From contig JAQXIP010000088.1 in assembly GCA_029007845.1 (NCBI GenBank), positions 1 through 50,867 of the forward strand: 50,867 bases of DNA, in the 5' to 3' direction. How positions within the stretch are numbered: position 1 is the stretch's first letter; each line of letters starts with the position of its first letter. Source of the stretch: Clostridiales bacterium. Its GTDB lineage: Bacteria; Bacillota; Clostridia; Lachnospirales; Lachnospiraceae. The translations under genes were made by a program, and so were the position numbers. Below the pieces are notes generated by a model, which was not told where the DNA came from, searched no databases, and worked only from the letters and a program-made list of their open reading frames with translations. Shown here piece after piece: positions 35,132 through 46,194 of the stretch.

Positions 35132-35150
35132 GTAAATGGAGGGATATTCG

Positions 35151-35303
35151 ATGAAAGAAAAAGTGTATCATACAATGAAATCAGTGGGAATTGTGAGTCT
35201 GGTGATTGGAATTCTGAATGTAGCCATTGGAATTGGGTTTGGCATTGTAATGATTATTAATGGAAGCCGCCTGTTAAAAGGAAAAGGGAAAATTATGTTC
35301 TAA
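35151..35303 (+). CDS. Small membrane protein, 50 residues
   Basis: An open frame starting ATG at 35151, with AATGGAGGG seven bases upstream. After a short charged head (MKEKVYHTMKS) it has about 26 hydrophobic residues (VGIVSLVIGILNVAIGIG...IVMIING) and a basic tail (SRLLKGKGKIMF). The strong site, the typical one-helix topology and the place between pyrE and the terminator suggest a real gene, last of the pyr operon. Function unknown. Confidence 0.6.
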   Translation: MKEKVYHTMKSVGIVSLVIGILNVAIGIGFGIVMIINGSRLLKGKGKIMF

Positions 35304-35434: not shown

Positions 35435-35463
35435 TTTACAAAAACGTCATTATCCTTTATCAT
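35435..35463 (+). promoter_or_regulatory. Promoter of the Tad-like locus
   Basis: TTTACA (35435-35440) and TATCAT (35458-35463), spacer 17 bp. The leader of about 110 bases contains a small CGCCT/AGGCG hairpin (35522-35536) and an imperfect dyad around CCGAATTGG. Confidence 0.6.
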
Positions 35464-35580
35464 TACGAGTAAGAAATCACTTTTATCTAAACTAATTTTC
35501 TTTTGGACAAGAGTCCATCATCGCCTTAATCAGGCGAATAATCCGAATTGGATTCATTATGCGAAAAAGGGAGGTTGTAT

Positions 35581-36213
35581 TTGAAAACAGTATATATCAT
35601 GGGGACAAGCGCTGTGGCATTTTCGGCTTTTTTTTCGGAAGGAATATCAAGGCTTGGATATAAGGTACTGCTTCTGGATGATTCAGCCAGCCAGGTGCTT
35701 TTGCAGACAATTCGCCGTGAACCATTTGATATCCCGGTGGAAGATTACCAAGGGGTTGATGTGGGAAAAGGTGAGGAACTGATTCCTGAGGAATACGACT
35801 ATATCATATATTATTCTGATTCCCAGGAAAACATTGGAGAACGAAAGATAGATGTATTATATCTTGTCAGTGGATGCTCAAAATATGAAATGGAACAAAT
35901 TTTTCAGATCCAGCAGCAGTATGAAGGATCCTGGGTTCTTCTGAAAGGAATCCCACAAGAGAAAAAAAGTCTGTCATATTACACTCGCTATTTCTATCTT
36001 ACAGAGGAAAATGAAAGACAGGTACGCATTATCTGGTTTGATTATCTGGATTACAGGACCGAAGGGGAATTTGGCTTTGATTCTTTATGTACGCTGTCTA
36101 ATCTGTCTGATAGTTATCTTTTGCTTCTGACGGACTGGATATCAAGATTAACAGGAAAAACCACAAGAGAGGTACATCGGATGATAAAAAAGAAAAGAGG
36201 ATGGAAAAAATGA
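35581..36213 (+). CDS. Unknown protein heading the Tad-like locus; MinD-like first strand without P-loop
   Basis: Start chosen at TTG 35581, seven bases after GGGAGG. The 210-residue product starts LKTVYIMGTSAVAFSAFF and then RLGYKVLLLDDSASQVL. This strand-loop-helix-strand order, ending in an LLLDDS strand, resembles MinD/ParA ATPases, but the P-loop lysines are missing. A second part (EEYDYIIYYSD, KIDVLYLVSG) also looks Rossmann-like. The C-terminus is basic (MIKKKRGWKK). It overlaps the next gene (a TadZ/CpaE-like ATPase) through ATGA, so the two may form a pair, one catalytic and one degenerate (inference). Family not recognised. Confidence 0.6.
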   Translation: MKTVYIMGTSAVAFSAFFSEGISRLGYKVLLLDDSASQVLLQTIRREPFDIPVEDYQGVDVGKGEELIPEEYDYIIYYSDSQENIGERKIDVLYLVSGCSKYEMEQIFQIQQQYEGSWVLLKGIPQEKKSLSYYTRYFYLTEENERQVRIIWFDYLDYRTEGEFGFDSLCTLSNLSDSYLLLLTDWISRLTGKTTREVHRMIKKKRGWKK

Positions 36214-37103
36214 AAATTGCGTTTTGGAGTAATGCGAAAGGAAAATGTGGTACAACATCAAATATGGCAGGAATTAGCGGAATGCTGGCGTTAGAGGGGA
36301 AAGCAAAGATGGTTCTTTTGGAGAATCATCAAAGTTATCGATGCGTAGAGAATTCCCTTGTGCCTGCCGGCCGTATGGCGGAGATGATCAAAGAACCGGC
36401 TCATTTGTACGGGCTTAGCGGCATGGAATATCTTTTAAAAAAACTACATTGCGGATTAATTGATGAGCATACACTGGAAGGTGTGTCAAGAAAGCTCTTT
36501 GGTGAACAGCTTCGCTATATTCCACACAGCCAGATCAGTGGGAAAGACTTGTTTGAGTACGAATTGTATCAGTCCGTTGACGAGTTGCTTGCCTGGATGG
36601 ATGAACAGGAAGAAATCTATCTGATTGACACCGAATATGGCGGAAATTTAAGCAGTAAATACATTCTGGAGCATGCCGATCTGGTTGTAGTCAACCTTTG
36701 TCAGAGCGGAGCAGTATTGAATCATTTCTTCGAGCAATATCATTCCATGATTGACAAATCAGTATTCCTTCTTGGAAATTATCATCCGAATTCCAGGTAC
36801 AGCCAGAAAAACATTTTGCGCAGATATCAGATTGATAAAAACCGTCTGGCGGTCATTCCGTATAATATGGAGTACCATGACGCATTAGAAGACGGAACGG
36901 TGCTTCATTTTTTAGAGCGGAATATGTATTGCAGTAAGAGAAATGATAATTATGGATTTATGCGGGATATGAAAAAGGCTGTGGATATGATATGGGGCAG
37001 AATTATGGAATGTAAGGGGGCTCAAGAAGAAAATGGAAGAAACGATAGCCAGTCTGACAGAGAACGTCAGGCATGCCATGCAGAGATGTCTTTATCAGAG
37101 TGA
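36210..37103 (+). CDS. TadZ/CpaE-like MinD-family ATPase, atypical P-loop
   Basis: Start at 36210 (ATGA overlap with the stop upstream; AAAAGAGG nine bases before). About 297 residues. The N-terminus MKIAFWSNAKGKCGTTSNMAG (read in parts) matches the position of the deviant Walker A KGGVGKTT, but the loop is NAKGKCGTTSN, so the usual GK before the Thr pair is altered. VVLLENHQSY-like and EIYLIDTEYG strands fit the Walker A' and B positions; ADLVVVNL is the next. TadZ/CpaE place and organise Tad pilus machinery at the membrane. Its next gene is a CpaF/TadA ATPase. The last 71 bases overlap that gene. Confidence 0.68.
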   Translation: MKIAFWSNAKGKCGTTSNMAGISGMLALEGKAKMVLLENHQSYRCVENSLVPAGRMAEMIKEPAHLYGLSGMEYLLKKLHCGLIDEHTLEGVSRKLFGEQLRYIPHSQISGKDLFEYELYQSVDELLAWMDEQEEIYLIDTEYGGNLSSKYILEHADLVVVNLCQSGAVLNHFFEQYHSMIDKSVFLLGNYHPNSRYSQKNILRRYQIDKNRLAVIPYNMEYHDALEDGTVLHFLERNMYCSKRNDNYGFMRDMKKAVDMIWGRIMECKGAQEENGRNDSQSDRERQACHAEMSLSE

Positions 37104-38592
37104 AAAGAAACTACCGGATGAAGAAAAAAGAATTCTGAGAAGGAAACAAAGGGAATTGAGAAAGCAGCTCAGCCTGTGTGCTTATGGAGAGAAAAAAGCT
37201 GCTACCTATGTGAGGCAGATGATCTTAAATATTTTATCGGTTCAATATGAATTATCCGATGTGTTTTTGGAAGGTCTGATTCCTTTTTCTCATCCAGAAG
37301 CGTTGTCAGGCAGAGACTGCTTTCTGATCTTATTAATGCAATACGAGAAAAAATATGAAAGACAAGCATTTTCCAATCTGGTAAAGGATGGAAATCTAAT
37401 GGAACAGCCTCGGATTACGGATCAACTGATTCGTGAATTGTATGAAAGAAAAGCAGAAACGATGGATCTGCATGAAAAAACAGAAGTTCTGGTACAGCGC
37501 ATTTTTGAGGATTACAAAGGGCTCGGGCCGATTGACCGGCTCCAGGGGATGGAATTAGATGGAATCAGTGCAGGACTAACCGGAAAGGATGATTATGGTA
37601 TATTCTTGTTCTTTCGGGGAAAAAGTATTGCGATGCCCTGTCTTACCTTTTCTGGAAAAAAAGATTTTCTCCGGGTGTGCAGAAATATTGGCCGTTATGA
37701 ATATCCGGGGCAGTTATCGGAAAAGAGAGGTTATCTTGTGAATCATCTTCCAGATGGTTCCAGGGTAACCGTGGCGCGGCCGCCCTTTTGTGAATCCTGG
37801 GTGTTTTTTATCCGGCAGTTTGACAGAAGATTCCGGGAAGAACTAGAAGAGCTGATTACAGACCGGGGAAAAGAGTGGCCGGTTCAATTAATCCGATGGC
37901 TAGTAAAGGGATGTCAGGTTACTGCGGTTACAGGAGCACAGGGGGCAGGAAAAACAACACTGCTCACGGCCATGATTCAGGAGATTCCAGAAAGCTACCA
38001 TCTGCGTGTCCATGAAGCGGCTTTTGAACTTCAGCTTCGTAAGAAATTTCCGGAACGAAATATAATGTCCATTCAGGAAACGGAAGTGATTTCCGGGCAG
38101 GAAGGACTGAATTTCCTGAAAAAGACAGATGGAGATGTGACGATTATCGGGGAAGTGTCTAGTGCCGAAATAAGTAATTATCTGGTACAGACAGCCCAGA
38201 TGGCATCCATGTTTACATTATTTACCCATCATGCAAAAACGACAAAAGCGCTGGTTGGTGCCCTTAGAAATGCGTTGTTGCAGACTGGGATTTTTCAGAA
38301 TGAGATGGCAGCACTCGAACAGGTAACCGATGTGATCCGTTTTGATATCCATCTTGTCAAAGATGGATCCGGCCACCGCTACATAGAACGCATATCTGAG
38401 ATTATTCCGAAAGAGGGTGGTTACCGGATACAGAATCTGGTGGAGTATCGAGACGGAATGTATGTTGTTACCGGGCTTCTAAGCCAGAATGCAAGAGAAG
38501 AAATACACATGCATTTATCAAGGGAAGAAATAGCGCAATACGAAGAGGATCTTCATCAGATGGAATGGAGGATGGGAAAGGAAATGGGGTGA
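37033..38592 (+). CDS. CpaF/TadA-type secretion ATPase
   Basis: A 519-residue protein with an N-terminal helical region, an N-terminal ATPase subdomain (LGPIDRLQGMELDGISAG; HLPDGSRVTVARPPFCESWVFFIRQ) and a RecA-like core: Walker A VTGAQGAGKTT, Walker B-like DVTIIGEVSSAE and the HAKTT stretch with the His box (LFTHHAKTTKALVGALRN). These are marks of the type II/IV secretion and Tad pilus motor. The start ATG lies 71 bases inside the preceding gene after GGGGGCT. Residues are diverged from typical CpaF (which has GEVRGxE where GEVSSAE stands here, so one conserved arginine is lost). It powers assembly of the small pilin-like proteins downstream (inference). Confidence 0.85.
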   Translation: MEETIASLTENVRHAMQRCLYQSEKKLPDEEKRILRRKQRELRKQLSLCAYGEKKAATYVRQMILNILSVQYELSDVFLEGLIPFSHPEALSGRDCFLILLMQYEKKYERQAFSNLVKDGNLMEQPRITDQLIRELYERKAETMDLHEKTEVLVQRIFEDYKGLGPIDRLQGMELDGISAGLTGKDDYGIFLFFRGKSIAMPCLTFSGKKDFLRVCRNIGRYEYPGQLSEKRGYLVNHLPDGSRVTVARPPFCESWVFFIRQFDRRFREELEELITDRGKEWPVQLIRWLVKGCQVTAVTGAQGAGKTTLLTAMIQEIPESYHLRVHEAAFELQLRKKFPERNIMSIQETEVISGQEGLNFLKKTDGDVTIIGEVSSAEISNYLVQTAQMASMFTLFTHHAKTTKALVGALRNALLQTGIFQNEMAALEQVTDVIRFDIHLVKDGSGHRYIERISEIIPKEGGYRIQNLVEYRDGMYVVTGLLSQNAREEIHMHLSREEIAQYEEDLHQMEWRMGKEMG

Positions 38593-38602
38593 TCGAAAGA
38601 GG

Positions 38603-39727
38603 ATGATTGTATGGGTGTTTAGTGTGATAGGAGCTGGTATGCTGATAGCCTGGAGTGTCCATGGAAAAAAGGAAGAAAGAAAAAGATGCCAAAGACGGGA
38701 CAGGATGTATCATTTTGTAATCGAAGTACAGAATCATTTTCAATATGAACCGGATATTATTTATGCACTGGAATGTGCTCTTGCAAATGTTCATGAGGAT
38801 CTGGATTTTTATCAGCATTTTTTGGATGTGGTAGTTCATGCGGTTAGTTATTTCGAGAATGACAGTGACAGCGGGGGAGAAGCGGTTGAGGATTTCCTGA
38901 ATGCAAAGCTGGAATGGTATGAGAGACTCTTTTTGTTTATGTGTATGATGGTGGAATCTATGGAGATTTCACCGGACTTATTTCAAAATGAGATGAGCCG
39001 GCTGTGCCTTAGGTTAGAACAGGAAAAAAGAGTGGAACAAAGACTGCATAACAGTATGTCAGGTACTGCATTTGCTGGTGTGGTACCCTGTCTGATGCTC
39101 CCTTTGCTGCGCTGGTTTTCCATTGAGAATTTACCGGAACTAAAGGGAATGTATGATGGAGGCTATGGCTTCCTGACCCTTTTGCTGATTGCGGTTACTT
39201 TGTGCTTTTCTTCCGGTGTGCTGGAATTCTTGAAACGAAAAGTATGGGAAACAGGAGAAGAAAAAGAATGGGAATTAATCTGCTGGGAATCTATTTTTAT
39301 CAAAGAAACGTACCGCGCAGATGTGGAGCTGTTGCTTGACTGGCTGCTTTTGTTTTCTTCAGAAGCGAAAGGCCGGCTATTGGATATCCGGTCTGCATAT
39401 GAGCAGTTTGGATGTGAAAATTTTGTGGATGAAATCTGGAGTGATGAGAAAACAGACTGGGAAAAACAGATGCTTTATGCACTTCAGAATAGTGACCGGG
39501 TTGGCATCCGGAGCGCTTTTTGCCGAAAGGAACAAGAGCTGGAGAGTGGTCACAAGAAAGAAGACCAGCGCAAGGAGCAGGTTCTCCGGCTCGCGGCTTC
39601 GGTTGCTCCCGTCATTTCATTTGTGCCTTTTTATGTAACAATCGGATTTTATCTTGTTGTTCCTTTTGTTACAGAAAGCATGAAACAGTTATCAAGTGTT
39701 TTAACCTCAATGGATCAGGTATGGTAA
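38603..39727 (+). CDS. TadB/TadC (GspF)-like platform membrane protein, diverged
   Basis: A 374-residue protein with a membrane helix at the very start (MIVWVFSVIGAGMLIAWSV), a cytoplasmic helical region (about 20-155), two close helices (about 158-178 and 186-205), a second cytoplasmic region and a final helix pair (about 335-360). This 1+2+1 layout with helical soluble parts resembles TadB/TadC, the inner-membrane platform of Tad pili. No sharp motif proves it. Gene order directly after the motor ATPase is the main support. Only one platform gene is present where canonical Tad has both tadB and tadC. The Shine-Dalgarno sits unusually close to the ATG, so the exact start is uncertain. Confidence 0.6.
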   Translation: MIVWVFSVIGAGMLIAWSVHGKKEERKRCQRRDRMYHFVIEVQNHFQYEPDIIYALECALANVHEDLDFYQHFLDVVVHAVSYFENDSDSGGEAVEDFLNAKLEWYERLFLFMCMMVESMEISPDLFQNEMSRLCLRLEQEKRVEQRLHNSMSGTAFAGVVPCLMLPLLRWFSIENLPELKGMYDGGYGFLTLLLIAVTLCFSSGVLEFLKRKVWETGEEKEWELICWESIFIKETYRADVELLLDWLLLFSSEAKGRLLDIRSAYEQFGCENFVDEIWSDEKTDWEKQMLYALQNSDRVGIRSAFCRKEQELESGHKKEDQRKEQVLRLAASVAPVISFVPFYVTIGFYLVVPFVTESMKQLSSVLTSMDQVW

Positions 39728-39740
39728 GGAGGAACGGAAT

Positions 39741-40190
39741 ATGGAAAATAGTTTAAAAGGATTAATACTTGCTGCAGGAGTGGCAATTACTTGTATTGTA
39801 ATATCTCTTGGATTTTTTATTGCCAGGGAAGCAAGAGATACAGCGTCAAATGGTACTGGAAAAATCCAGAAATTAAATGCAGAGTTTAATGAGAGTGACA
39901 AAGTACTATATGATGGGCTGCAGGTTTCCGGAAGTGAAGTGATGAATGTAGTTGGTAAATTTCAGAATGAGCAATTAAGCATTAAGGTTGTGACCAAAAA
40001 ATCAAGTCAGTACTATGGATATAGTATGAGCGGGTCAGATACGATGTTAGGGACGGCATGTTCTTCTTCTACTTCGGAAGCCCAAAGTGTTACAAGTACG
40101 AAGTATATTAATCCAAATGCCCAATTTGTGGGAAGTATCTGCCGGGATAGTAATGATACCGTGATTGGAATTGTTTTTACACAGGTTTAA
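39741..40190 (+). CDS. Pilin-like protein, probable major subunit
   Basis: A 149-residue protein: short N-terminus (MENSLKGL), one hydrophobic helix (ILAAGVAITCIVISLGFFIAR read in parts) and an exported part rich in Ser/Thr with two cysteines (TACSSSTSE; GSICRDSN) that could form a disulfide. A short leader, a single hydrophobic N-terminal helix and a variable outer domain are the layout of Flp/type IV pilins, though no canonical prepilin cleavage site (G-x-x-x-E) is present in the usual form. Strong RBS (TAAGGAGG). The largest gap-free run of similar small genes follows. Function inferred from layout and place. Confidence 0.55.
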   Translation: MENSLKGLILAAGVAITCIVISLGFFIAREARDTASNGTGKIQKLNAEFNESDKVLYDGLQVSGSEVMNVVGKFQNEQLSIKVVTKKSSQYYGYSMSGSDTMLGTACSSSTSEAQSVTSTKYINPNAQFVGSICRDSNDTVIGIVFTQV

Positions 40191-40205
40191 ACAAGGAGAA
40201 TGGAT

Positions 40206-40379
40206 ATGGAAGAAGGCATTCATTTGATATGGAGTAATATCGGGGTGTTTCTGTTTTGTCTGGGAGTTGCCCTTTTGGTAAAGGGAATGAGAGGTGTTGC
40301 ATCTTTGGAGACTTACACTGGCCGGTGTATGTATCAGCAGCATGTCTTGTCTGTTTATGATGGATGGAGTGAGAGGTAG
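40206..40379 (+). CDS. Small membrane protein, 57 residues, in the Tad-like locus
   Basis: A frame too short for routine calling. ATG at 40206 lies seven bases after AAGGAG; an earlier ATG at 40200 is too close. The product is MEEGIHLIWSNIGVFLFCLG, VALLVKGMRGV, then a short polar tail ending VYDGWSER. The stop (40377-40379) is directly followed by the next start at 40380. One helix and tight packing make a real gene likely. It may be a minor pilin-like or structural subunit. Confidence 0.6.
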   Translation: MEEGIHLIWSNIGVFLFCLGVALLVKGMRGVASLETYTGRCMYQQHVLSVYDGWSER

Positions 40380-40895
40380 ATGAGTAATGCTTTTGGCAAG
40401 ATCATGGAAATCTTTTTGTTTGCAATTCTTGTGTTTCTTATGCCGCTTCAATATGAGGCACAGAAACAAGACGGGATTATCCAGAATTATGTATTACAGG
40501 AAACGGCCTATCTGGTTGATTCTGCGGCAAATCTGGGATATCTGAACCGGAATATGGTAGAAATATACGAGAAGAAATTATTCAGAACCGGATATTCTTA
40601 TGATATAGTCTTCACGGTGCATAAGCAGAAAATCCTGTTGTCAGACGACACAGAAGAATCCACGGTTACGCAGAGGGAAGATTATGAGTATGTGGACAAT
40701 TATGTCATCTGGGAAGCTTTATATGGGGAGAATGGCGAATTTAAGATGAAACAGGGAGATTTTCTGTCAATCCAGGTTTCTTCAAGAGGAAAGACGTATT
40801 ATGAACAGATCAGGTCTTTCTTTCTCATGAGAAGTATGAAGAATTCCGGAATCTTTGTACAGTATGGAGGAATGATAAAGGATGAGACTTCATGA
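40380..40895 (+). CDS. Minor pilin-like membrane protein
   Basis: A 171-residue protein with an N-terminal hydrophobic helix (GKIMEIFLFAILVFLMPLQY) and an outer domain (DSAANLGYLNRNMVEIYEKKL; YDIVFTVHKQKIL; SIQVSSRGKTYYEQI). The text GYLNRNMVEIYEKKL near residue 55 resembles the region after the helix of TadE/F-like or other minor pilins, but I do not claim a family. Its start abuts the stop of the small protein before it, and the next gene overlaps its end by 14 bases, so it belongs to the same operon. Confidence 0.55.
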   Translation: MSNAFGKIMEIFLFAILVFLMPLQYEAQKQDGIIQNYVLQETAYLVDSAANLGYLNRNMVEIYEKKLFRTGYSYDIVFTVHKQKILLSDDTEESTVTQREDYEYVDNYVIWEALYGENGEFKMKQGDFLSIQVSSRGKTYYEQIRSFFLMRSMKNSGIFVQYGGMIKDETS

Positions 40896-41655
40896 TTGGG
40901 CTGTTTTGTTTTGTGGAGTATTTCTTGTTTTTGCTTTAAAGCAGGATATGGAACATGAGCTGCATGAGGCAATGACCAGAAGACAGATCTTTTATAATCA
41001 GGTCCTGGATCATGCAGTTATGGATGCAGCATGGAATATGGTGATATCGGATGATGGGACATTGTTTGAGTATCCCAGAAAAGAGGTGGTGAAACGTTTT
41101 TATGATTCGGTTTATCTTGGGGCGGGTGTTATGGAAAACCCATATAAAAAACAGGAATTAAGCCAGATGATTCCGGTTCTTATTATTATGGAAAACGACG
41201 GATTCTATACAGTAGTCAATGAAGATGGTTCTGGGGAAAAGATATCATATGAAAAGAAATATGGAGAGTGGAAAGTGATCTATCAGGTAAATGGTCTGGT
41301 GCAGGTGGAACAGGAGAGTACAGGCTTTTATCAGATGGGAACTTATGAAGAAGTAGCGCCACTGATTTCGGAACCGGAATGGGAAAGTTTTGATTCTTAT
41401 GAAGCGGAGCGAAGAAAGGTGATCGTTGACTCTCTTACCAATTCTATCAATGAAACAATGAATGAAAAGAACCGGATTGCCAGAAAAACAGGAGCGGTTT
41501 ATCAATTCCGTTTTCCGGTAATTAAAAAGGAGGAATGGTATCGGACAATTGACCATCCAGGGGTATTTGCCGTGTTTCAGGGCTATCCCTTTGCTCTCTC
41601 AGATAATCGCTATGAACGCATTGCGGTCGCTGGAGCAAGACTTGTAAAACAATAA
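40882..41655 (+). CDS. Membrane-anchored exported protein of the Tad-like locus
   Basis: A 257-residue protein with a short N-terminal hydrophobic helix (WAVLFCGVFLVFALK) and a long outer domain. HELHEAMTRRQIFYNQVLDHAVMDAAW, read in parts, is a helix after the anchor, in a layout like the preceding gene product. KKYGEWKVIYQVNGLVQV looks beta-stranded; the last part (NSINETMNEKNRIARKTGAVYQFRFP) is mixed. It overlaps the preceding gene by 14 bases and ends the locus, before a terminator shared with corC. Family not recognised; a tip or minor pilin is a fair guess only. Confidence 0.55.
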   Translation: MRLHDWAVLFCGVFLVFALKQDMEHELHEAMTRRQIFYNQVLDHAVMDAAWNMVISDDGTLFEYPRKEVVKRFYDSVYLGAGVMENPYKKQELSQMIPVLIIMENDGFYTVVNEDGSGEKISYEKKYGEWKVIYQVNGLVQVEQESTGFYQMGTYEEVAPLISEPEWESFDSYEAERRKVIVDSLTNSINETMNEKNRIARKTGAVYQFRFPVIKKEEWYRTIDHPGVFAVFQGYPFALSDNRYERIAVAGARLVKQ

Positions 41656-41659
41656 GAAA

Positions 41660-41686
41660 ATACCGGGTCATGTTATGACTCGGTAT
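41660..41686. terminator. Hairpin between convergent genes (terminator for corC-like gene, possibly bidirectional)
   Basis: ATACCGGGTCAT (41660-41671) pairs with ATGACTCGGTAT (41675-41686), one G-T pair. On the minus strand TTTTC follows, on the plus strand only a weak T stretch. The minus-strand stop is inside the loop. Confidence 0.7.
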
Positions 41687-42998: not shown

Positions 42999-43034
42999 AA
43001 TGTTGGGGGTAAAAGGTATTTTTCCCTCAACATT
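42999..43034. promoter_or_regulatory. Tight 16-bp imperfect inverted repeat between divergent genes
   Basis: AATGTTGGGGGTAAAA (42999-43014) and TTTTTCCCTCAACATT (43019-43034) pair with two mismatches around GGTA. It lies in the 91 bp between the divergent corC-like and exported-protein genes, so it may be an operator. It is not placed to end either gene. Confidence 0.45.
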
Positions 43035-43065
43035 TTACATGAAATGCAAAGGAGTGTCAATAAGA

Positions 43066-46000
43066 ATGAAAAAAATGTTTTGCAGGACACAACACAGAAG
43101 GACGGCTTTCATTTTGTCTGCAGTATTTTTGTGCTTGTGCGCTTTGTTTTATGCAAAGATGGCATCTGCCCAGAATCAGGCAGATGTGACTTCGGAGGAA
43201 GGAAAAATCAAGTATACGACAATTGATACAAAAGCGACCTCTGGAATACGGTGGAAGACAGTTGGCTTTACCATAACGAAAGAAAAATGCCTTTCTGGAA
43301 GCAAGGCAAATGGAGGCTATCCAACAAAACTCAAATATGCGGTCATCTGGCTGGAACAGGCCGAAAAAAAGAGGACAGATCTGGGGAATGGTTCGGTTAA
43401 GACGGAGTTTGTTTTGTCAAAAGATGCGGTTGATAAAGCACTGGTGCAAGGTGGATTTGAATCCATTCGGGATGAGGATGTACTCTATCTGCATGGGATA
43501 TTTCAAGTAGTACATAATGGGACCGATTATGGATCAAAGATCTATAGTCTGCCAGAAATTGTAAAGGCAGAAAATTGGAGAAATCCGGACGATTTTAAAG
43601 ACCGGTTTGATATTAAGGTAGTGTATCATAGTGGAAAAGATCCGGTTGTAATTGAATATCGGACGAATAAAGGAAATCTGATAGAAGAAATCACTTATCC
43701 GAAAAAGGATTATGTACGTACAGGAGAAAAAGTATCCGTGACACTGGACAAGAAGCGTACTTATTTATCCAAACCATATATCCTGACCCGCTCCTATTAT
43801 GTGCAAAACAAGTATTCTTCCAGCCTCAAATCCGTAAAAAAGGTATCGGAAGATGGGATGGATGCTGTGAGCAGGCGAACCTTCCGGCAGTGCCTGGGAG
43901 GAATCCGGATTGTGGCAATTATGGCGGTTGATAAACCGGATCACAGTGATTCCTATTTGTATGGAGAACTGGAAGAAATGGAGGCTTTGGGAACCATTTT
44001 TTCCAATGAGTTTGAAGTGACAGAGGGAATCCCTTCTTCCGAGTATGTATCCATCAATGTAGATGCTCCTGTATATTGCCGGGAGTATACCTTTCATAAA
44101 GTGTCCGTGGAAAAAACATATCCTGTGACACTCAGGGTGGTCTATTATCTGACGTGGCAGGAACAAAAGGATGGCAAGATCCAGATCCGGTCGGACCAGG
44201 TAACGAAAACTTACCATACAGAGGTAACACGGAAATATAGTTATTGGGAGATTGAATCTCTTGCAATTTTTAGAATAAAAAAAGCATTTGTCAGCAATGG
44301 AGCATTGGAAGGAGGAACAAGGGAACTTTCAGCAAAGGTAAAGGAGAAACAAATCGAATGCATTACATATGAACCGCAGGCACATGTGAAAGAGCCTCAG
44401 GCAGGGAGGGTATACGAAACAAGTGTCTCTCTTACCGGAAGCGGAAGCCGGCCTAAGATTGAGGAGACGGATGTGTCAGTATTAAGAAAGGCAGACTCTC
44501 TTGTTGAGGAGGTAAAGGTTCGAAACGATTTCCTTATGATTGATGACCTCTGTGTGATGGACGATGAATGGTGCCAGACAAGGACAAAGAAACCGATGGC
44601 TATTCCTGAGTGGAACGAGAGGACAAAAGAGGGGGACGTATCGGCTGATGCGGTCTTGATTCCTGCCCAGACCAGAAATGAGATCTATCCTTCTTCCGGC
44701 TATGTGATTTATGAATGCTGTCTGGAAGTAAATTGGACGCACTTAAGAAGAATCCGCCTGGATCTGTCCAAAATAAATGATATTTGTGTGCATACTCCGG
44801 TTGTCTGTGAACCACGGGTAGAGGATCAGATAAAATATAATCAGGAAATCCATCCGGATGTCAGTCGGGCGGGGCTGGTACTTGATACCGTTTTTTCAAT
44901 TTCTTATCCAACAATGGGGCAGCATCTTCCAATGAAAGGATACGGATATCGGGATTATGCAAAATATATGAGTAAGCGCGTGATCCGGTTCCCGTTTGAC
45001 GTGTATGTGAATGGACAGTATTATCCGGCCGGAAGTACCTGGCGGATGAGTGGAACAGAAATATCCTGTTATCTGCCAACCTGGGTAGAAGAAGGAGATT
45101 ATGATCTGGAATTTTATACAGCTGCAATTAATGTACAAAATCCGGATGACCGGCAGTACTGGGAGGAGCAGGCTAATCGGGACCGCTCCAATACCGTCGC
45201 TTGTCAGATTGTTCCGGTTCATGTATCGGGCAGACTATATGGAATGCAGGTGTATGATATTTCGGACTATCCTTTATGGAGGGATGTATTTCGGATAAAC
45301 AAGGGGACGGAATGGAATGGCTTTGCTTTTCATGCTGGCTCGGCGGATTCCTTTGGCAATGAATTAAACCGGAAGAACGTTCTGCCGGTTATGAAAGGCT
45401 CTCATCCATACAATAAGGAAGAAGGGGTGGTTCCCACTGGTTACTATATCCGTTACCGGATTACTACGATTGGCAATCTGACAGGTGCGGATGATTATAT
45501 TCACATAAAACCGTTTTTTTATTATTGCAGCAAGGACGGAAAAATACGCGAGAAGGTGGATGTGTATTATGGAGAGGAGATAGATGGAATCTATTATCCG
45601 CTTGTAAAGGTGGGGAGTGAGAAGGACAAGGAAAACAGTAAGACAATCAATCTATGGAACCCGTATCTAATCATACCTGATTCGCTCCGGACAGATTGGA
45701 AAAATTCACCCAGAGTATATACGTACCAAAATATTATGCTGTCACAAAGGCTTCGTTCTTATCATGGAAATACACGGTTAATAAACGGAATTCTGCCTGG
45801 AGAGGTAGACCGGGATGTGATGCAGAAATCGGTTCAGTACTGGTATGGGGAATATCATCTGCCTGCTGCGGTTCATGTGGCAAAGGAAGGGACGGATGTA
45901 TATACATATGGAAAAAATCACGGAATCACATTTGAGGAACCGTTCTGGTACCAGGACGGATATCTTATTGTTGCTTTTCAAATTGAGAGTATTGATGAAA

Positions 46001-46194
46001 GAAAGCCGCACTTAAGTTACCGGAATGAAGAAAATTCAAAAAATGGTTATTGTAATATGTGGAAAATGGAAAACCAGATTCTGAACCGCACAGACAGCAG
46101 CGGCAATGTGTTTCATCTGGAATATGGGGACGTTTTTTTCTATGATTTATCCCGCAGCACAGCGAAGGATTACAGAAGTGCTGGAACCCATTAA
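43066..46194 (+). CDS. Large exported protein, 1042 residues
   Basis: The ATG at 43066 is preceded by AAAGGAG; longer in-frame starts run through the inverted repeat and lack a signal. The product has a signal peptide: RTQHRR, a hydrophobic core (TAFILSAVFLCLCALFYA) and a likely cut after ASA near residue 35. The rest is exported and mostly beta-rich, with repeated Val/Tyr/Thr strands, and DSYLYGELEEME, YSYWEIESLAIFRIKKAF and SISYPTMGQHLPMKGYGYRDYAKYM (read in parts). There is no LPXTG, no S-layer and no membrane anchor at the end. The early IDTKATSGIRWKTVGFTI pattern reminds me of DUF5704-type proteins (low confidence). It may be the substrate or surface partner of the Tad-like locus; this is inference from proximity. 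Confidence 0.65.
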   Translation: MKKMFCRTQHRRTAFILSAVFLCLCALFYAKMASAQNQADVTSEEGKIKYTTIDTKATSGIRWKTVGFTITKEKCLSGSKANGGYPTKLKYAVIWLEQAEKKRTDLGNGSVKTEFVLSKDAVDKALVQGGFESIRDEDVLYLHGIFQVVHNGTDYGSKIYSLPEIVKAENWRNPDDFKDRFDIKVVYHSGKDPVVIEYRTNKGNLIEEITYPKKDYVRTGEKVSVTLDKKRTYLSKPYILTRSYYVQNKYSSSLKSVKKVSEDGMDAVSRRTFRQCLGGIRIVAIMAVDKPDHSDSYLYGELEEMEALGTIFSNEFEVTEGIPSSEYVSINVDAPVYCREYTFHKVSVEKTYPVTLRVVYYLTWQEQKDGKIQIRSDQVTKTYHTEVTRKYSYWEIESLAIFRIKKAFVSNGALEGGTRELSAKVKEKQIECITYEPQAHVKEPQAGRVYETSVSLTGSGSRPKIEETDVSVLRKADSLVEEVKVRNDFLMIDDLCVMDDEWCQTRTKKPMAIPEWNERTKEGDVSADAVLIPAQTRNEIYPSSGYVIYECCLEVNWTHLRRIRLDLSKINDICVHTPVVCEPRVEDQIKYNQEIHPDVSRAGLVLDTVFSISYPTMGQHLPMKGYGYRDYAKYMSKRVIRFPFDVYVNGQYYPAGSTWRMSGTEISCYLPTWVEEGDYDLEFYTAAINVQNPDDRQYWEEQANRDRSNTVACQIVPVHVSGRLYGMQVYDISDYPLWRDVFRINKGTEWNGFAFHAGSADSFGNELNRKNVLPVMKGSHPYNKEEGVVPTGYYIRYRITTIGNLTGADDYIHIKPFFYYCSKDGKIREKVDVYYGEEIDGIYYPLVKVGSEKDKENSKTINLWNPYLIIPDSLRTDWKNSPRVYTYQNIMLSQRLRSYHGNTRLINGILPGEVDRDVMQKSVQYWYGEYHLPAAVHVAKEGTDVYTYGKNHGITFEEPFWYQDGYLIVAFQIESIDERKPHLSYRNEENSKNGYCNMWKMENQILNRTDSSGNVFHLEYGDVFFYDLSRSTAKDYRSAGTH

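Follow-up and report, generated by a model that had tools for sequence, protein, structure and literature searches.

Loci that resemble the tad genes of type IVc (Flp) pili without carrying the prepilin motif were reported in a few Clostridia by Imam et al. 2011 (PMC3244431), whose 'no Flp_2' group retains tadV, has a tadA that is not distant from that of other Clostridia, and is described with no mention of Paenibacillus. Denise et al. 2019 (PMC6668835) discussed fission of the Tad platform as well as the sharing of peptidases among systems. Two reports on the Myxococcus Kil system (PMC8460266, PMC12075869) present a Tad-like machine for contact-dependent killing, a precedent for the functional divergence of Tad-like systems. 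Here we analyzed a 50,867-nucleotide stretch (the window) of contig JAQXIP010000088.1 from a Clostridiales bacterium of the family Lachnospiraceae (assembly GCA_029007845.1). Judging from its sequence and its relatives, an eight-gene cluster at 35581-41655 is probably a reduced copy of a Bacillota-wide, Tad-derived machine that assembles a type IV filament.

The eight open reading frames (ORFs) are intact, lie on the + strand, and are separated by 0-13 bp or overlap slightly (Table 1). As the initial annotation of this DNA had stated, the genes are closely packed and each of the four small proteins bears a single N-terminal helix. Searches of Pfam, NCBIfam and PHROGs matched the motor alone (T2SSE, 1.6e-8; TadA family, 1.5e-12), while the seven other products, the small proteins included, gave no significant match in these databases. 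Since the same set in the same order recurred in ~100 loci examined from Lachnospiraceae, other Clostridia, Paenibacillaceae and Bacillales plasmids, its occurrence is far beyond chance. The shared order runs SAF protein, P-loop-less SIMIBI protein, MinD-like protein, motor, platform, 1-5 pilin-like proteins, one further pilin-like protein, W13 and W14, often followed by a Cu-amine-oxidase-N1 or SLH protein and then by a DUF5704 protein. A scan of a genome collection returned at least 364 encoding stretches, and the best 80 came from Lachnospiraceae, other Clostridia, Thermoclostridium, Alkaliphilus, Peptococcaceae, Paenibacillus, Cohnella and Tumebacillus; together with the Bacillales plasmids, these hosts make the originally proposed restriction to gut Clostridia too narrow. 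A search of 200 Lachnospiraceae genomes gave 30 with a motor match, of which 27 were counted as carriers. The remaining three (G012, G015 and G148) were set aside as conventional TadA, judged by an identity of 28-30% and, in the case of G012 and G148, also by their loci.

To identify components, family profiles were compared using hhalign with profiles of conventional Tad loci from related genomes, the unrelated membrane family CorC serving as control (<1%). The first protein (W7; likely start TTG 35581) was found in 79 loci, and its profile, built from 79 homologues, matched conventional CpaE; a search of the PDB gave weak ParA matches. It indeed lacks a P-loop, as initially noted, and the second protein (real start possibly ATG 36210) has the altered P-loop ascribed to it, KGKCGTTSN, with no lysine of GK[ST]. 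The motor is of the CpaF type, as had been proposed. Its family conserves Walker A (GxQGxGKTT), GEV and THHAKTT, which read GAQGAGKTT, GEVSSAE and THHAKTT in the window; GEVSSAE, previously remarked upon in place of GEVRGxE, is the local form of a family consensus GEVASA. The platform family matched TadB over its N-terminal half (96.8%) and TadC weakly over its C-terminal half (9%). The initial annotation was right to count a single TadB/C-like platform protein; in kind it is neither TadB nor TadC alone, but a TadB/TadC-like fusion in shortened form. Finally, the SAF protein encoded upstream of the cluster in relatives matched CpaB (93.4%), and NCBIfam gave CpaB for a Paenibacillus SAF protein at 5e-11, under the curated cut-off.

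We built a tree of 41 motors, 27 of them from the window-type family. The 27 grouped as a single clade (100/100) whose stem measures 4.4 changes per site and which lies outside the group containing CpaF, TrbB and VirB11. They were not nested within the sampled CpaF sequences, with long stems leaving the exact placement uncertain. Taken together, the profile matches to CpaF, TadB, CpaE and CpaB and the well-supported separate motor clade bear out the view of a strongly diverged Tad-like assembly locus. Motor and platform also place the cluster within the type IV filament superfamily.

The pilin-like family, present in 1-5 copies per locus directly 3' of the platform gene, is represented in the window by the 149-amino-acid (149-aa) protein, whose best homologues share 66% identity. 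An AlphaFold2 model of this protein (predicted local distance difference test score, pLDDT, 83) places an N-terminal helix at residues 2-50 (49 residues) ahead of five strands in a beta-rich head; that of W14 (pLDDT 86) has a 49-residue N-terminal helix plus a mixed domain. By its layout alone, the first model suggests a type IV pilin fold. In relatives the slot of the 59-aa protein is taken, by gene order, by a pilin-like c12/c58 or c10 protein, c12 and c10 being related to the pilin-like family by profile comparison. The family shows strong conservation of its start, M-x-N-[AS]-x-K-[AG]-L, with N3 invariant in an alignment of 48 sequences. The class III prepilin motif, [GAS]-x4-[DE], occurs in 4/174 pilin-like proteins as opposed to 7/8 conventional prepilins that served as positive controls, taken from these or related genomes, and is missing from c12 (0/23), c10 (0/25), W13 (0/83) and W14 (0/61; 0/192 together). 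A canonical cleavage site is therefore nearly absent, as the initial annotation held. By profile, no Flp match was obtained (hhalign, 1.6%), and comparison with ten conventional TadE/F-like proteins gave 1.5% for W13, 1.9% for W14 and 0.9% for the pilin-like family, values that leave remote homology possible. Judged by sequence, the 149-aa proteins form a separate family unrelated to Flp or TadE/F. The locus would work in the manner of a Tad/type IV filament machine, but we did not file it as a Tad system, since it has no Flp, TadE/F or TadV and its subunits almost never show the class III motif.

We considered whether the locus nevertheless encodes an ordinary Tad pilus of diverged sequence whose prepilins are processed by the PilD of the genome, which we regard as rather unlikely. 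Searching ORFs up to 10 kb from the ~100 loci yielded no A24 peptidase. The genome of the window does encode one (PilD-type), within a PilD-PilM-prepilin type IV pilus cluster; a different contig carries PilB, PilT and PilC. Peptidase and secretin genes are both missing from the locus, as first reported, and a prepilin peptidase exists elsewhere. A24 genes lie away from the locus in 28/28 and 30/31 genomes examined, an A24 enzyme could cut the short K-[AG]/L N-terminus, and peptidase sharing between systems has precedent (PMC6668835), all of which would suit an ordinary pilus. However, A24 was present in 199/200 of the Lachnospiraceae genomes and, being near-universal, is uninformative. The scarcity of the class III motif relative to the controls, the invariance of N3 within what would be the leader, the lack of a profile relation to Flp or TadE/F, and the long stem that sets the motor clade apart from CpaF likewise argue against it. 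These results answer the objection, raised with the initial annotation, that the small proteins might be ordinary Tad pilins with a peptidase elsewhere: the peptidase is there, and by profile the proteins are not ordinary Tad pilins.

Maturation of the subunits may depart from the usual rule. Since A24 genes are encoded elsewhere in the genome, PilD cleavage at K-[AG]/L is possible. The K-[AG]/L site is similar to archaeal class III sites; the archaeal-type peptidase PF06847 was not found in 25 genomes, mostly carriers, while archaeal controls were positive. Alternatively, and tentatively, subunits would enter the filament uncleaved, the retained M-x-N-[AS]-x-K-[AG]-L start standing in for Glu5 and the cleaved N-terminus in a Bacillota-wide machine that has DUF5704 as its dedicated surface partner. 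In many relatives a conventional Tad locus, equipped with A24 genes of its own, is present as well. Pairs of A24 genes ~8-9 kb apart were observed in G095:C21, G011:C74, G098:C13, G009:C52 and others, and the two such loci that we opened (L150, L151) were conventional Lachnospiraceae Tad loci with Flp-like pilins.

A further component, overlooked by the initial annotation, is a DUF5704 (PF18964) protein encoded downstream of the cluster, with a signal peptide after an internal Met near 43066. In many relatives its gene directly follows W14 or c17, and SLH or Cu-amine-oxidase-N1 partners are encoded beside it. DUF5704 was present in 24/27 carriers versus 1/173 other genomes (Fisher, 1e-26, ignoring relatedness), on a contig other than that of the motor in 16/24 carriers. 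From this co-occurrence we conclude that DUF5704 works together with the machine. The sole sampled genome with DUF5704 and no detected motor (G014:C69:21920-22417) may have a more divergent machine. CmoA of Paenibacillus sp. NAIST15-1, considered by its size as a DUF5704 protein, was rejected because it has vWFA and IPT domains and belongs to a flagellar operon; our literature search found no paper naming DUF5704. That the system correlates most strongly with DUF5704, even across contigs, and that conserved partners carry wall- or S-layer-binding domains, could also mean that the locus encodes a pseudopilus-type secretion machine, in which a short piston rather than a long pilus exports or displays DUF5704. 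We doubt this explanation: DUF5704 has an N-terminal hydrophobic, signal-like segment and its export should need no second machine, and it is missing from 3/27 carriers.

The window copy is small and in that respect 'minimal', as it had been called, but this is partly a local effect, relatives having a larger platform and, in most cases, a SAF protein, which many Lachnospiraceae loci nevertheless lack. No SAF gene lies at the locus here, and no CpaB-like SAF protein was found in the window genome (an 88%-complete assembly); candidates for an unlinked CpaB proved to be sialic acid synthases. The platform is without residues 1-76 and about 286-398 of its relative in locus L037. The motor keeps 110/127 near-invariant residues (0.87; lowest relative 0.86), the platform 15/23 (0.65; lowest relative 0.84), and the pilin 42/43 of those defined in the Lachnospiraceae set, so the subunit is tightly constrained whereas the platform seems to have drifted or been remodelled. 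One might take the locus in this genome for a decaying remnant, given the absent SAF gene, the shortened platform and a motor branch of 1.75 versus about 0.4-0.7 in neighbors; the platform deletion could also be an assembly fault in a fragmented metagenome-assembled genome (MAG). Decay is nonetheless improbable: all eight frames are open, the catalytic motifs of the motor are retained, its near-invariant residues fall just inside the range of relatives, the pilin is almost fully conserved, and the platform deletion is in frame, removing two predicted helices relative to L048 with parity kept. As for the relatives, which the initial annotation allowed might carry decayed remnants, their frames are open and conservation is strong, the fast-evolving copy being that of the window itself.

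Plasmid-borne clusters were found in Cohnella herbarum, Alkalihalophilus pseudofirmus OF4, Lysinibacillus sphaericus and Sporosarcina psychrophila. A few kb from the cluster, two Bacillales plasmids bear TraM-recognition (coupling) and replication-relaxation (relaxase-like) genes (L158:1787-6111, L165:1-3769), and pBsph-like plasmids of L. sphaericus were reported to be conjugative (PMC13239906), which raises the idea of a conjugation pilus. We consider this very improbable, as most loci are chromosomal with conserved housekeeping neighbors (pyr genes, CorC), all four plasmids opened were typed non-mobilizable, and in an older study pBsph was not self-transmissible in the assay used (PMC4363355).

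If the cluster is indeed a Tad-derived filament machine, the two TadZ-like proteins would position the complex and the motor would drive the platform, which in turn would lift 149-aa subunits from the membrane into a filament across the thick wall, a filament that the 171- and 257-aa proteins would begin or cap. DUF5704, plus a wall- or S-layer-bound partner where present, would form the surface end as adhesin, gate or exported cargo, and subunit maturation would not obey the usual [GAS]-x4-[DE] rule: the housekeeping PilD may cut at K-[AG]/L, or maturation may not take place. Several observations weigh against this interpretation. The C-terminal half of the platform is only weakly TadC-like, no relation of the pilin-like family to Flp or TadE/F could be detected by sequence, and no solved pilin was matched by the pilin and W14 models in Foldseek and VIA-align, whose best rows were long helices or unrelated folds, a pilin fold being still possible; a search of PDB sequences with the pilin profile likewise gave no match. 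The co-occurrence statistics of DUF5704 ignore phylogeny. With ~180 residues absent from its platform and a motor on a long branch, the window copy may work poorly. The separate pilin family and the association with DUF5704 agree with the proposal of a distinct surface or secretion machine in the initial annotation. Gene content, order and conservation, homology of the core, lack of the motif and of a linked peptidase, and co-occurrence of DUF5704 were seen in the sequences themselves; the function, filament formation, the roles of W13 and W14, the surface end and the mode of maturation are what we infer from them.

The cluster is flanked by a pyrimidine operon, which ends with pyrE and a 55-aa membrane protein, and by a convergent CorC-like gene. 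The 55-aa protein (window 35136-35303) has one helix and occupies the same place after pyrE in 8 loci. A promoter-like site at 35435 and the hairpin at the other end are compatible with a single transcription unit, both being consensus matches only; promoter-like sites were no more frequent than in shuffled sequence. Directly upstream of the SAF gene, 22 loci carry a PknB-like Ser/Thr kinase gene (cluster c11; L066, L071, L072, L084-L087 and others, with many from Clostridia and Paenibacillus), whose product might regulate the machine. In Clostridia MAGs (L092, L098, L100, L108, L115, L136 and others), W14 is followed by a PDZ/SpoIVB-type S55 peptidase gene (cluster c9, 25 loci). Genome G098 holds a second, divergent copy of the system with several one-helix proteins (L054:13469-15999), near which short proteins appeared WXG100-like by eye.

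Table 1. Features of the filament-like locus and its downstream partner in the window.
Feature	Position	Strand	Evidence or remark
W7, SIMIBI/ParA-like protein without P-loop, diverged TadZ/CpaE-like partner	35581..36213	+	hhalign CpaE 90.9%
MinD/TadZ-like protein, degenerate Walker A (KGKCGTTS)	36201..37103	+	hhalign CpaE 95.8%, alignment
CpaF/TadA-like motor ATPase	37033..38592	+	Pfam T2SSE 1.6e-8; hhalign CpaF 99.6%; nearest solved structure of the profile, PDB CpaF 8rkd, 2.2e-24
Platform protein, 374 aa, 4 transmembrane helices	38603..39727	+	shortened form of 540-700 aa TadB/TadC-like fusion
Putative major pilin, 149 aa, MENSLKG start, one helix, beta-rich head	39741..40190	+	no class III prepilin motif
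59-aa one-helix protein	40200..40379	+	one homologue detected, L037 at 33%
W13, 171-aa one-helix protein, putative minor pilin	40380..40895	+	84 loci; no TadE/F profile match
W14, 257 aa, N-terminal helix and mixed domain, putative tip/minor pilin	40882..41655	+	79 loci
Terminator-like hairpin	41660..41686	+	after the final gene of the cluster; consensus scan only
DUF5704 (PF18964) secreted surface protein, 1064 aa ORF	43000..46194	+	Pfam 2.4e-26

Should these interpretations hold, a surface machine widespread among Gram-positive bacteria (seen in 27/200 Lachnospiraceae genomes, in many Paenibacillus and on several megaplasmids) has largely escaped characterization, since no family matches seven of its eight products. 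Such a machine would provide a test of whether type IV filament assembly requires prepilin processing, would connect PF18964, a family of unknown role, with a machine, and could be studied as a new surface structure in gut Clostridia and Paenibacillus.

The nearest description that we found is that of the 'no Flp_2' loci (PMC3244431), which, compared by description, may or may not overlap with the window family. Both occur in Clostridia, lack the prepilin motif, comprise rcpC (SAF), tadZ and tadA, and have genes distant from other tad genes; in contrast to those loci, ~100 window-type loci carry no A24 gene and their motor is very distant. With monoderm competence and type IVa pili (ComG, PilB/C/D) the system shares a motor, a platform and one-helix subunits that traverse a thick wall, but the sequences are clearly separate, and other contigs of the window genome carry a type IVa set of its own with canonical prepilins. 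The Myxococcus Kil system, as described (PMC8460266, PMC12075869), is likewise Tad-derived, with its own pilins and tip proteins. As to the Tad pilus itself, the two have in common a CpaF-type motor, a TadB-type platform, TadZ/CpaE-type proteins and, in relatives, a CpaB-type SAF protein, and the absence of a secretin is as in other monoderms. The window family differs from it in having a single fused platform where Tad has TadB plus TadC, in having no Flp, TadE/F or TadV at the locus, in a separate pilin-like family, in a motor clade distant from CpaF, and in its DUF5704 partner.

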